Assembly (NCBI GenBank): GCA_017656235.1
Contig: JACDOF010000001.1
Location: forward strand, 868,001-932,000
Length of the DNA: 64,000 nt
Origin: Brevibacillus sp.
Lineage (GTDB): Bacteria; Bacillota; Bacilli; Brevibacillales; Brevibacillaceae
Reading direction: 5' to 3'
Shown: positions 24,043-27,763 of the stretch, one piece after another
Layout of the letters: each line of letters opens with the position of its first letter
Numbering within the stretch: the first letter of the stretch is position 1
Translations under genes and position numbers: made by a program
Notes under the pieces: generated by a model
Databases searched by the model: none
What the model was told of the DNA's origin: nothing
What the model saw: the letters and a program-made list of their open reading frames with translations, nothing else

Positions 24043-24078
24043 TCGCCCCCCTGTTCTCATGCCCGCTAGGGGGGGCGA
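24043..24078 (-). terminator. Terminator of the decapeptide-repeat gene
   Basis: A 9-bp G/C-rich stem (TCGCCCCCC with GGGGGGCGA) and an 18-base loop, followed leftward by TCTGTTTTTTC. It begins four bases after the stop codon. Confidence 0.85.
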
Positions 24079-24082
24079 CTGC

Positions 24083-26032
24083 TCAAACCTCCGTCTGTTG
24101 GTCATCTGTTCCAACATCTGGCGTTTGTTTACGGGATTCCTTTGTTTGTTTTCCAAAGGCAATCCAGTATATCATTCCTTCCTGGTGGCTGCTTTCTCCC
24201 TGACGAATCACCGTCAGCATTGCTCTATCCGCGGTCTTCCATTTCAATGTCGCAAATGATCGGTACAGATTGGTCATTGCCACGATCCCGTACTCAGCGT
24301 CGGCAAACGGTTCATCCAGTTGGACCAGCACGTCGGTCGACATTTCACTCTCTTCCACGTTAAAGAGTACCATTCCAAACTGTTGCATTGTATTCTCTCT
24401 TGCTTTTACCGTCTGAACCGGAACAAACGACAGCTTTTCCGGCGTAATGGAGGAATCTTGCAGTTTGCTGCCGGAGACAGCCTGGTTCTGAATGTGAACC
24501 GTGCTGACAGATTCAGGAGCGATGTGCTGGGTGTATACAGATCTGTCGGCAAGCTTCTCCTTGGTCACGGAGCCATGACTGAGATGTTGGCTTTTGACGG
24601 ATTCCATCGCCAGCTTCTGGGAAGTGACGCTGTAATCAGCCAATTTGCCGCTCGTGACGCAGAAATCGGTCAATTTGTCGGTAGAAACCGATTCAGGGGC
24701 CAGCTTGGAGGTGGTCACAGCATGCTCGCCAATCTGGTTGGTTTGCACCGCTCCGTCTACCAAATGTCTGCGGTCGATGGAGCGATCCTTGATGTGCTCT
24801 GTGGTGACCGCTCCCTTGTTCAGTTTTTCAGCCGTAATCACCCCGTCTTGGAGGTGATGGGCCATGATCGCATCCTCGGAAAGATGGGCGGAATAAATGC
24901 TTTGTTCGGCGATTTTTTCCGAGGTCACGGCATTGTTGGCGATTTTGCTGGTGGTCACCTGTTGGTCCCCGATCTTTTTGTGAGTGATCAGGTAGTCGTG
25001 CAGATGACGTGTCTGTATCGAAAACGGCTGCAGGTGCAAATCTGACACGACTTCCCTCGCAAGCTTCGTCGCCGTCACCGACTGATCGGCGAGATGTTCA
25101 CTGGTCACACTCTGCCGGGCCAGAATATCGCTGGTCACCACACCATTCTTCAAATGTCGGGTATCAATCCCATCTTCGGCCAGGTGTTCGCCCGAGATGG
25201 CTCTGGCCGCGATATGCTCCCGCAGGACAGCTCCCTCCGCAAGATGGAACGACTGTACGACATGGTGCTTCAGGTGTTCCTGTCCTACCGAGCCACTGGC
25301 CAGTTTATCAGCGGTGACGGCTCTGTCCCGGATTTTGTCGGTCGTAACCACTTCAGGAGCCAGTTTGGCGTTGTTAATAATCCCGTTGGCAAGGTGATGG
25401 GTCTGAATGTTTCCCGGCTTGATTTTCTCGGCAGTGACCGACTGTTCTTGCAATAGATCGGTTGTGATGCACTGTGGATGGAGATGCTTTGTGCCAATCG
25501 ATCCTTCCGCAATTTTCATGGAGTCAATCGTCTTGTCGGCCAGCTTCTCCGAGGTGATGCTGTTGTTCATCAACTTCTCGCCAGAAATGGTCCGATCCTG
25601 AATTTTTACGCCCGAGATGGCGTAGTTGGCGATATGCTGTTCTTCTATGGCCATCGCCGCAATCTTGCTGGAAGTAACGCTGTGATTCGCCAATTTGTTG
25701 CTGTTGACGGCGTAATCCTTGAGCGCTTCCGTGTCGATGCTCCCGGTTTTCAGTTTGGACGAATCGATCGCCCGGTTGGCAATCTTCTCTGTTGTCACAG
25801 CCTGATCGGTAATGTCGTCCGTATAGATAAAAGCGACTTGTTGCTCTCCCTTTCGTTCCTTGACCACTTTGCTATAACTCTTTTGATTAGAAGCTGCTGG
25901 CCGGGGCGAGGACATCTGTGACGGCTCACTAGCGGAGTCATCAATTTCTTCGAGCCACTCCAGATCGATCGGCTTGCGCGCTACTGCTGCCTTTTTGCGC
26001 TTTGCGGTTGACCTTCCGTTTTGCTTGGCCAT
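24083..26032 (-). CDS. Large decapeptide-repeat protein, WIAG-tail type
   Basis: 649 residues in three parts. Residues 1-75 are basic, then linker-like, with no signal peptide. Residues 76-535 are 46 ten-residue repeats with no insertion or deletion. The pattern is x-x-[SA]-[VI]-[TS]-[TS]-x-[KH]-[LI]-A, e.g. DQSVTATKLA and NNAVTSEKIA. The last 114 residues are globular and contain MIYWIAFGK, close to the signature of 'WIAG-tail' proteins of spore-formers. The repeats suggest a beta-helix or rod. A strong terminator follows, so it is its own unit. Function unknown; a spore-surface or structural role is only a guess. Confidence 0.85.
   Translation of the reverse strand: MAKQNGRSTAKRKKAAVARKPIDLEWLEEIDDSASEPSQMSSPRPAASNQKSYSKVVKERKGEQQVAFIYTDDITDQAVTTEKIANRAIDSSKLKTGSIDTEALKDYAVNSNKLANHSVTSSKIAAMAIEEQHIANYAISGVKIQDRTISGEKLMNNSITSEKLADKTIDSMKIAEGSIGTKHLHPQCITTDLLQEQSVTAEKIKPGNIQTHHLANGIINNAKLAPEVVTTDKIRDRAVTADKLASGSVGQEHLKHHVVQSFHLAEGAVLREHIAARAISGEHLAEDGIDTRHLKNGVVTSDILARQSVTSEHLADQSVTATKLAREVVSDLHLQPFSIQTRHLHDYLITHKKIGDQQVTTSKIANNAVTSEKIAEQSIYSAHLSEDAIMAHHLQDGVITAEKLNKGAVTTEHIKDRSIDRRHLVDGAVQTNQIGEHAVTTSKLAPESVSTDKLTDFCVTSGKLADYSVTSQKLAMESVKSQHLSHGSVTKEKLADRSVYTQHIAPESVSTVHIQNQAVSGSKLQDSSITPEKLSFVPVQTVKARENTMQQFGMVLFNVEESEMSTDVLVQLDEPFADAEYGIVAMTNLYRSFATLKWKTADRAMLTVIRQGESSHQEGMIYWIAFGKQTKESRKQTPDVGTDDQQTEV
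24428..25807 (-). repeat. 46 tandem 30-bp coding repeats
   Basis: The DNA behind the 46 decapeptides, exactly 1380 bp. The repeats are diverged at DNA level (many synonymous and surface changes) while the hydrophobic positions 4 and 9 and the Lys/His at position 8 are kept. This points to old, selected repeats rather than a recent slippage expansion. It is not a CRISPR array. Confidence 0.9.
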
Positions 26033-26204
26033 TCCTCTCGCCTTCCTTCTCTAAAATCTTCGTACCATGTCATTTCATAACATATTCATTTGCTCCTATT
26101 GCGGGCACTGCTACCGCGACAATTAGGTACATGTATCATGCGAGGGGTTACACGATTACACGGACTCAACCTGAGTGGATGCTCTTTGCATTTCTCCTCT
26201 GCAC

Positions 26205-26254: not shown

Positions 26255-27763
26255 TTACCCGATCAATTCTGCTGCCGGTTCTGCCTGTTCAAGCAGGCGG
26301 CGGAAAACATCTCCGCTGAGGACCTCCTGCTCCAGCAAGATTTGCAGACTACCCGTAAAGACCGAGTCGAACTGCCGCAGCAGGCGGCGTGTCCGGTCAA
26401 GCAGTTCTTCTATTATCCGGTTCACTTCTTCGTGCACCTGTGATTTGGCGATGTACGAGAGATGGACAATTCCCAACCGGGACATCCCGCTTTGCACAAT
26501 TTCGTGGGCCATGGCCAAAGCCTGCTCAAAATCGTTTTTGGAACCTGTGCTTCGTCCGCCGTAGTAGATTTCTTCGGCAACGGCACCACCCAGGCAGACC
26601 ATGATCTGCTCCTCCAACGCTTCTTTGGTGTAGAGATAGCGATCCTCCAACGGATTTTGCCGCACATACCCCAACGCTTGTCCACGCGGTGTAAGCGTAA
26701 CCTGGGATACCGAGCCAGGCCGGATGAATTCGCTGACGATCGCATGGCCCAATTCATGAATGGCTACGCGCCGTTTCTCTTCATCAGATGCTTCCCGGTC
26801 CGTTTGTTCCCCCATCATTACCTTGTCCACGGCCATTGCAAAGTGGCGCTTTTCGATCCGTTGGGCCTGTTCTCGCATCGCGTAGATGGCGGCCTCGTTC
26901 ACCACGCTTTCCAACTGGGCACCGGAGAACCCGAACGTCTCCTGCGCGATTTTTTCCAGCTCGACCTCATCGGCCAGCGGCTTGTTGGCAGTGTGTATCC
27001 GCAGGATCTGCTCCCGCGCCTGTTTGTCAGGCAGATCGACGACAATATGCCGATCAAACCGGCCAGGCCGAAGCAGAGCAGGATCCAGCATATCTTTGCG
27101 GTTGGTAGCCGCGATCAGCAGGATGCGCGGTTTTTCCTCGGCCACAATCCCGTCCATCTCCGTCAGCAGCTGGTTCAGCGTCTGGTCGTACTCACGCTGC
27201 TGCTGTCCATCCCGCTTGCCTCCGATCACATCAATCTCGTCGATAAAAATGATCCCGCTGTCCTGGCCGTTTTTTTCCGCAAGCTGCTTTACCTCACGAA
27301 ACAGTTCACGGACACGCTGGGCTCCCACGCCGACATACATCTCCACAAACTGTGAGCCGGATGCGGCCACAAAAGCGGAATTGGTATAGTTGGCCGCTGC
27401 TTTGGCCATCAGCGTTTTCCCGGTTCCGGGCGGACCGGTCAACAGCACTCCCTTGATCGGCCGGATTCCGTAATGAGCAATTTGGTCCTTCCTTATCAGA
27501 AAGTCAAGCGCCTCCATTAACTCACGCTTGGCACGCTCCTGACCGCCAATGTCGGCAAACTGCACATTGCTCTTGGGCACGACATGTTGCGAGCGCTTGC
27601 GCCGTCCTCCAGTGCCCAAACCCGTACCAGACTGCCGTGAAAGCAGAAAGTAAATCCCGACCAATACGGCCGCAAAGACAAGAAATGGCCCCACATTGAC
27701 GTTGAGAAAAAGCAGGAAGAGAATTACGCTAGGGACAATCCCATAGAGAATTTCCTTAACCAT
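26255..27763 (-). CDS. FtsH-like membrane AAA+ zinc protease lacking the extracytoplasmic domain
   Basis: 502 residues. Two membrane helices (about 7-22 and 25-42) are joined by only a few residues, so the usual ~70-residue outer domain of FtsH is missing. The AAA+ core is intact: GPPGTGKT at 110-117, pore loop FVEMYVG at 139-145, IIFIDEID at 171-178, and second region of homology ATNRKDMLDPALLRPGRFD. The protease has HELGH (336-340) and the third zinc ligand Asp in KNDFEQA (~411). It should degrade membrane or cytosolic proteins. The upstream gene overlaps it by 8 bases. It is separate from the housekeeping FtsH, and resembles YjoB-like or mitochondrial i-AAA forms. Confidence 0.92.
   Translation of the reverse strand: MVKEILYGIVPSVILFLLFLNVNVGPFLVFAAVLVGIYFLLSRQSGTGLGTGGRRKRSQHVVPKSNVQFADIGGQERAKRELMEALDFLIRKDQIAHYGIRPIKGVLLTGPPGTGKTLMAKAAANYTNSAFVAASGSQFVEMYVGVGAQRVRELFREVKQLAEKNGQDSGIIFIDEIDVIGGKRDGQQQREYDQTLNQLLTEMDGIVAEEKPRILLIAATNRKDMLDPALLRPGRFDRHIVVDLPDKQAREQILRIHTANKPLADEVELEKIAQETFGFSGAQLESVVNEAAIYAMREQAQRIEKRHFAMAVDKVMMGEQTDREASDEEKRRVAIHELGHAIVSEFIRPGSVSQVTLTPRGQALGYVRQNPLEDRYLYTKEALEEQIMVCLGGAVAEEIYYGGRSTGSKNDFEQALAMAHEIVQSGMSRLGIVHLSYIAKSQVHEEVNRIIEELLDRTRRLLRQFDSVFTGSLQILLEQEVLSGDVFRRLLEQAEPAAELIG

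Follow-up and report, generated by a model that had tools for sequence, protein, structure and literature searches.

What would a spore-forming bacterium do with a protein that is, over most of its length, a run of ten-residue repeats? The question is raised by a Brevibacillus sp. gene in the window analyzed here (the whole 64,000-nucleotide stretch of contig JACDOF010000001.1), the only one in its genome to match the NCBIfam WIAG-tail model NF012201 in a profile search. The family is conserved in Brevibacillaceae and Paenibacillaceae and almost always single-copy, and it is named but has no described function; NF012201 itself supplies a name only. Our literature search found no paper on WIAG-tail function, and the sole paper found to name WIAG-tail concerns an algal virus annotation (PMC12085832). 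The domain is thus already known from NCBIfam and the repeat from PHROGs, while a sporulation role and a lectin-type head were not found described.

Architecture of the gene and conservation of its repeats

The features of the locus, all on the minus strand, are as follows.

24044-24077, minus: likely intrinsic terminator, a G+C-rich inverted repeat followed by a T run (read from the sequence, no terminator scan)
24083-26032, minus: WIAG-tail fibre protein ORF, 649 aa, ATG start
24086-24148, minus: C-terminal tail, residues 629-649, polar
24149-24388, minus: WIAG-tail domain, residues 549-628, predicted all-beta, with H-type-lectin / tail-fibre-tip fold
24428-25807, minus: shaft, residues 76-535, 46 decapeptides of the form xx[SA][VI][TS][TS]x[KH][LI]A, no indel, with matches to PHROGs tail-fibre families
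25808-26032, minus: N-terminal segment, residues 1-75, with a very basic start (MAKQNGRSTAKRKKAA) and then a short acidic stretch
26041-26049, minus: likely ribosome-binding site, GAAGGAAGG, read straight from the sequence
26078-26108, minus: conserved promoter-like element GTGCC-N16-GAATATGTTA, sigma-K type by architecture (-35 at 26104-26108, -10 at 26078-26087)
26255-27763, minus: short FtsH paralogue, 502 aa, with an HELGH motif, directly upstream, a neighbor conserved in the family

Hairpins with T runs, as read from the sequence, suggest that the gene is likely monocistronic. The N terminus had been called basic in a preliminary description of the sequence, which holds for the first residues and only roughly for residues 1 to 75 as a whole (14 K/R versus 11 D/E). 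The motif TDDITDQ, immediately ahead of unit 1, is conserved. When the sequence of residues 1 to 75 was examined, no hydrophobic signal or membrane segment was found, as expected for mother-cell proteins laid on the forespore, and we regard this segment as a candidate anchor. At the other end, several Brevibacillus relatives (L039, L041, L042, L049 to L051, L054, L055, and L059) extend beyond the WIAG domain in long low-complexity Asp/Glu repeats (DDEDTDDEDT...), and the window protein differs from them in having no such extension. All NF012201 relatives examined resemble it in combining variable ten-residue repeats with a C-terminal WIAG domain.

Residues 76 to 535 divide into exactly 46 units without insertion or deletion, as had been described. 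Every unit has Val or Ile at position 4 (V 26, I 20) and Leu or Ile at position 9 (L 31, I 15), a combination with a chance of 0.020 per unit and ∼1e-79 over 46 units, given the composition of the protein. Position 8 is, as also described, nearly always Lys or His (42 of 46 units; K 24, H 18; exceptions A, L, I, and Q). The repeat pattern as first written is slightly too tight at other positions, with S/A at position 3 in 32 of 46 units and A at position 10 in only 22. The units are diverged in DNA, as claimed, with a mean pairwise nucleotide identity of 0.42 (0.42 also for adjacent units) and a maximum of 0.73.

The further claim that length has been kept by selection agrees with a dN/dS of ∼0.04 to 0.08 in the shaft (three congeners compared, with dS near saturation) and with shaft lengths in 35 relatives that differ only by whole tens; indels relative to the window shaft in the alignment measured 10, 20, 90, 100, 110, 130, 170, 190, 200, 320, 330, 670, and 680 residues. 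The shaft is under strong purifying selection. Orthologous units were 51 to 83% identical versus 27 to 28% for nonorthologous units, which indicates that each unit has its own identity. The decapeptide array is old in the host genus, and the absence of recent copying, as previously stated, is accurate there but not in Paenibacillus, where several shafts contain multiunit blocks 92 to 100% identical in DNA, so that arrays grow through the copying of whole-unit blocks.

The number of units is 46 in three members of the genus, mostly ∼55 in a neighboring genus, and >110 elsewhere, and it reaches ∼250 in Paenibacillus with the period unchanged, a range between species of at least 5-fold. In three genomes of one genus (G029 to G031; L035 6844-7998, L036 6847-7896, and L037 7028-8149), the N terminus and WIAG domain are retained, nearly all decapeptides are lost, and the protein is 349 to 384 aa long. 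Their congener G028 has ∼47 units.

Position 8 and the folds of shaft and head

The preliminary description took the Lys/His residues at position 8 for a ladder of positive charge that could bind an acidic polymer. The composition of that position does not agree with this view. Across Brevibacillaceae shafts, position 8 is K 1,058 times, H 756 times, and R only 6 times in 2,274 units, whereas the other nine positions have a K:R ratio of 752:695; this near-exclusion of Arg, set against a ratio of ∼1:1 elsewhere, indicates that a positive charge as such is not what position 8 calls for. In relatives, His at position 8 drifts to Asn or Gln rather than to Arg, and the shaft overall is slightly negative (50 K/R versus 56 D/E).

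Position 8 is also the most conserved of the ten, the commonest residue averaging 94% compared with 59 to 78% at the others, and not one difference separates any two of three congeners there over 46 units. Lys and His are fixed unit by unit and are not interchangeable. The choice between them is coupled to position 5, which is T, S, D, or N in 24/24 K units versus 7/18 H units of the window protein (Fisher P = 7e-6), and the same coupling is present across the Brevibacillaceae and Paenibacillus groups. We infer that the Lys/His residue probably has a specific, hydrogen-bonding or ion-binding, buried role. Decapeptide fibre shafts are common in phages, and the unit-by-unit conservation of Lys versus His offers a good starting point for learning how they are constructed.

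A likely beta-helix had been proposed for the shaft, and the structural models gave this no backing. AlphaFold2 produced no solenoid for the full-length protein (12 sequences; pLDDT of ∼30 to 35 over most of the shaft) or for residues 66 to 305 (32 sequences; mean pLDDT of 50), although both runs were of low confidence over the shaft and, being of monomers, neither prove nor exclude a homotrimer. In sequence, the shaft matches phage tail fibres: phrog_892 at an E value of 2.5e-93, a further five tail-fibre PHROGs with E values below 1e-9 (scores that repeats inflate), and 403 phage records by tblastn. The decapeptide shaft has two more features in common with phage and pyocin tail fibres, the recurrence of V/I and L/I at five-residue intervals and the placement of K. 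A Pfam search of the protein returned no fitting model and no collagen family, and weak matches to DotG/IcmE were set aside as probably compositional. Among solved structures searched by sequence, only PDB 9eg4 contains a few such decapeptides ("orf16"; E value of 1e-5 with a consensus query). They lie in chain H, residues 77 to 134, of this seven-chain structure, amounting to three to four units of the shaft type, and the structure may reveal the shaft fold.

For the C-terminal domain, the "WIAG-like tail" of the preliminary description is confirmed by NF012201, which matches residues 549 to 628 over its full length (profile positions 1 to 80 of 80) with 85 bits against a cutoff of 33. AlphaFold2 models residues 548 to 632 as all-beta, with pLDDT mostly 80 to 91. 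Fold searches, from which the low-confidence shaft models were left out, placed this head closest to the LKA1 tailspike gp49 (VIA-align Z of 11.0 over 82 residues, 2.2 Å), followed by the R1 pyocin fibre (9.5), the AP22 tailspike (9.4), discoidins (9.2), and Helix agglutinins (9.1 to 8.9). H-type lectins overall (Helix pomatia agglutinin, discoidins, and SLL-2) scored 7.6 to 9.2 and unrelated folds ∼4.5 to 6; Foldseek agreed, matching the model to the lectin SLL-2 at an E value of 7.5e-4. The head is therefore predicted to have an H-type-lectin / tail-fibre-tip fold, a likeness to H-type lectins that goes with just 11 to 17% identity. A shared fold is no proof of sugar binding.

In sequence, the Pfam tail-fibre C terminus Gp53-like_C (PF21882) matched 5 of 10 WIAG tails (best E value, 5e-5), the window's own not among them. 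The WIAG domain matched none of 50,697 phage records at E values up to 1, and its profile had no match among PDB sequences. Heads of the H-type-lectin and tail-fibre-tip type are homotrimers in known proteins, and by analogy we propose that the WIAG-tail protein may form a homotrimeric fibre.

Distribution, locus, and upstream region

The WIAG-tail gene was found in 38 of the 39 genomes of the host family, covering 7/7 genera; it was single in 37 genomes and formed a tandem pair in one. That pair, in Brevibacillus massiliensis (G032; L045 7837-11421 and 5387-7609), has ∼91 and 47 to 48 units. Named relatives come from Brevibacillus, Paenibacillus, and Fontibacillus, along with one record labeled Bacillus sp. 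In a phylum-wide sample of 398 genomes, it was present, apart from the genome of the window itself, only in five genomes of a single other family. In nearly every Brevibacillaceae genome the gene lies between the ftsH paralogue and aspB/asnS/dnaD, and in Paenibacillus it has a different location.

A link to spores had been suggested for this protein, together with a search for its tail in other spore-formers. In a class sample of 399 genomes, the gene was present in 109, and all 109 carry SpoIVA, compared with 269/399 overall, a co-occurrence confounded by phylogeny in that carriers cluster in families and many spore-formers are without the gene. Genome G143, from the family of Paenibacillus-type carriers, has neither SpoIVA nor the WIAG-tail gene. 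Genome G027 belongs to a spore-former of the host family and to the same genus as G028 to G031; it has no WIAG-tail gene, so the gene is not needed for sporulation.

Besides SpoIVA in every carrier of the class sample, the link to spores is supported by the promoter-like element, of apparent sigma-K type, that is conserved ∼33 to 45 bases ahead of the start codon. In Brevibacillaceae upstream regions, the form GTRCC-N16-GAATAYNNTA occurred in 28 of 39 and in none of the shuffled controls. Upstream of Paenibacillus-type genes, GTG[AT]C[AC]-N12-17-GCATATG[AT]T occurred in 23 of 28, again with none in shuffles; the spacing was 15 in all parsed cases, the forms being GTGACA, GTGTCA, or GTGACC, N15, and then GCATATGAT or GCATATGTT. 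The Brevibacillus element can also be written GTRCC-N16-GAATATNNTA, and its -10 is one base off (A where the consensus has C) from the sigma-K/sigma-E form, which we take to be GCATANNNTA. In B. subtilis, the ten-base -10 is common to sigma-K and sigma-E; the -35 of sigma-K promoters is five bases long and has C as its fourth base, where sigma-E has T, and the gap is 14 to 16 (PMC517825). By this B. subtilis yardstick, both elements fit the sigma-K architecture, the Brevibacillus one with its single -10 mismatch, and their sequences would be consistent with sigma-K control. A genome scan with the element at one mismatch gave 8 matches versus 6 in the reversed control, a lack of enrichment indicating that the element in this exact form is not shared across a whole regulon. 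We dismissed the idea that the GAATATNNTACA block encodes a conserved upstream leader peptide, as its frame is stopped in many relatives.

The sigma-K gene of the host genome is itself seemingly split between contigs (G000:C4:143199-143621, L146, and G000:C6:117558-117830, L147). The two parts cover model positions 3 to 144 and 137 to 227, and a large serine recombinase ORF adjoins the first. An element resembling the skin element of B. subtilis probably accounts for the split.

Proposed function and comparison with known spore filaments

From the repeat, the domains, the promoter-like element, the purifying selection, the restriction to SpoIVA-bearing genomes, and the predicted head fold, we propose, with a probability of roughly 0.6, that a phage-tail-fibre-type protein is used here as a homotrimeric spore-surface fibre made by the mother cell. 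Late in sporulation, the sigma-K-type promoter would direct synthesis of the protein in the mother cell. Having no export signal, the protein would be deposited on the outer side of the developing spore by means of its basic N-terminal segment. The fibre would consist of three associated chains, with trimerization starting from the C-terminal head formed by the WIAG domain. The decapeptide shaft would then be a thin trimeric rod or spacer, its length depending on how many units it contains (46 in this protein, ∼250 in some Paenibacillus), with the V/I and L/I residues of positions 4 and 9, respectively, as its core and the position-8 Lys/His as a structural residue facing a neighboring chain or the axis rather than as a charge ladder. 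The head may bind a surface sugar or another partner and so bring about spore adhesion or clustering. The WIAG domain with almost no shaft in some relatives of one genus speaks against the spore-fibre proposal.

Three other explanations share part of this evidence. The protein could be made by the mother cell but remain unexposed, as a structural spacer or scaffold lying either between layers of the coat or between the coat and the forespore membrane. This has the same promoter and sporulation evidence behind it, and a basic start paired with the acidic C-terminal tail of many relatives could join layers; a lectin / fibre-tip head at the C terminus nevertheless suits a free outer end better, and the wide variation in shaft length fits poorly with a layer of fixed thickness, so we consider a place inside the coat rather unlikely. 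Lower still is the chance we give to a monomeric beta-helix rod that binds DNA, teichoic acid, or a spore surface polymer through its Lys/His face. The abundance of Lys and His at position 8, both in the window protein and in Paenibacillus (H 35%, K 17%), is what such a rod would have, but the scarcity of Arg, the exchange of His with Asn or Gln, the fixing of Lys and His by unit, the slightly negative net charge, and two low-confidence monomer models without a solenoid all count against it.

The likeness of both shaft and head to phage fibre parts might instead mean that the gene is a domesticated or remnant phage or tailocin tail-fibre gene serving a phage-like particle, or an adhesin of vegetative cells. 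Unlike the genes of phage tail fibres, this one is chromosomal, has a sporulation-type promoter, and lies at a housekeeping locus that is fixed, with the ftsH paralogue and aspB/asnS as flanks, throughout almost the whole family, and the window contains no phage genes beside it. Strong purifying selection, a WIAG domain unmatched in phage records, and confinement to genomes with SpoIVA likewise disagree with a phage role, which we regard as very improbable.

The closest functional parallels to the proposed spore-surface fibre are BclA and the anchor and tip fibrilla proteins of F-ENA (PMC11952670), which resemble it in having an N-terminal anchor, a repeat stalk of a length that differs between strains, and a trimeric C-terminal head, and also in being made late in sporulation without an export signal. 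It differs from BclA in both main parts: the stalk of BclA is a Gly-X-Y collagen rather than a decapeptide array, and its head is C1q/TNF-like rather than of the lectin / fibre-tip fold predicted for WIAG. Pfam found no BclA_C match in the window protein, and the host genome contains neither the F-ENA domain DUF4183 (PF13799) nor a CotZ/ExsY family protein. The WIAG-tail protein as proposed works like BclA and the F-ENA anchors but is not a member of either group. Described coat proteins of B. laterosporus are other proteins, and the literature search found no paper on spore appendages covering both Brevibacillus and Paenibacillus. In a recent study of spore appendages in Paenibacillus, the fibres are reported to have no tip fibrillum (PMC11952670), and a stalk-plus-head protein is for that reason directly testable there.

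More tentatively, and with somewhat less than even odds in our estimation, these proteins may make up a previously undescribed class of spore-surface fibre in Brevibacillus and Paenibacillus, a sigma-K-made homotrimeric rod of 40 to 250 decapeptides with an H-type-lectin head, in which the order of Lys and His is a structural code (for example, of axial ion or hydrogen-bond sites) and which fills the role that BclA has in the B. cereus group. Should the spore-fibre reading be right, the protein represents a second route to spore "hair," with phage-tail-fibre parts in place of collagen and a length tuned in ten-residue steps.
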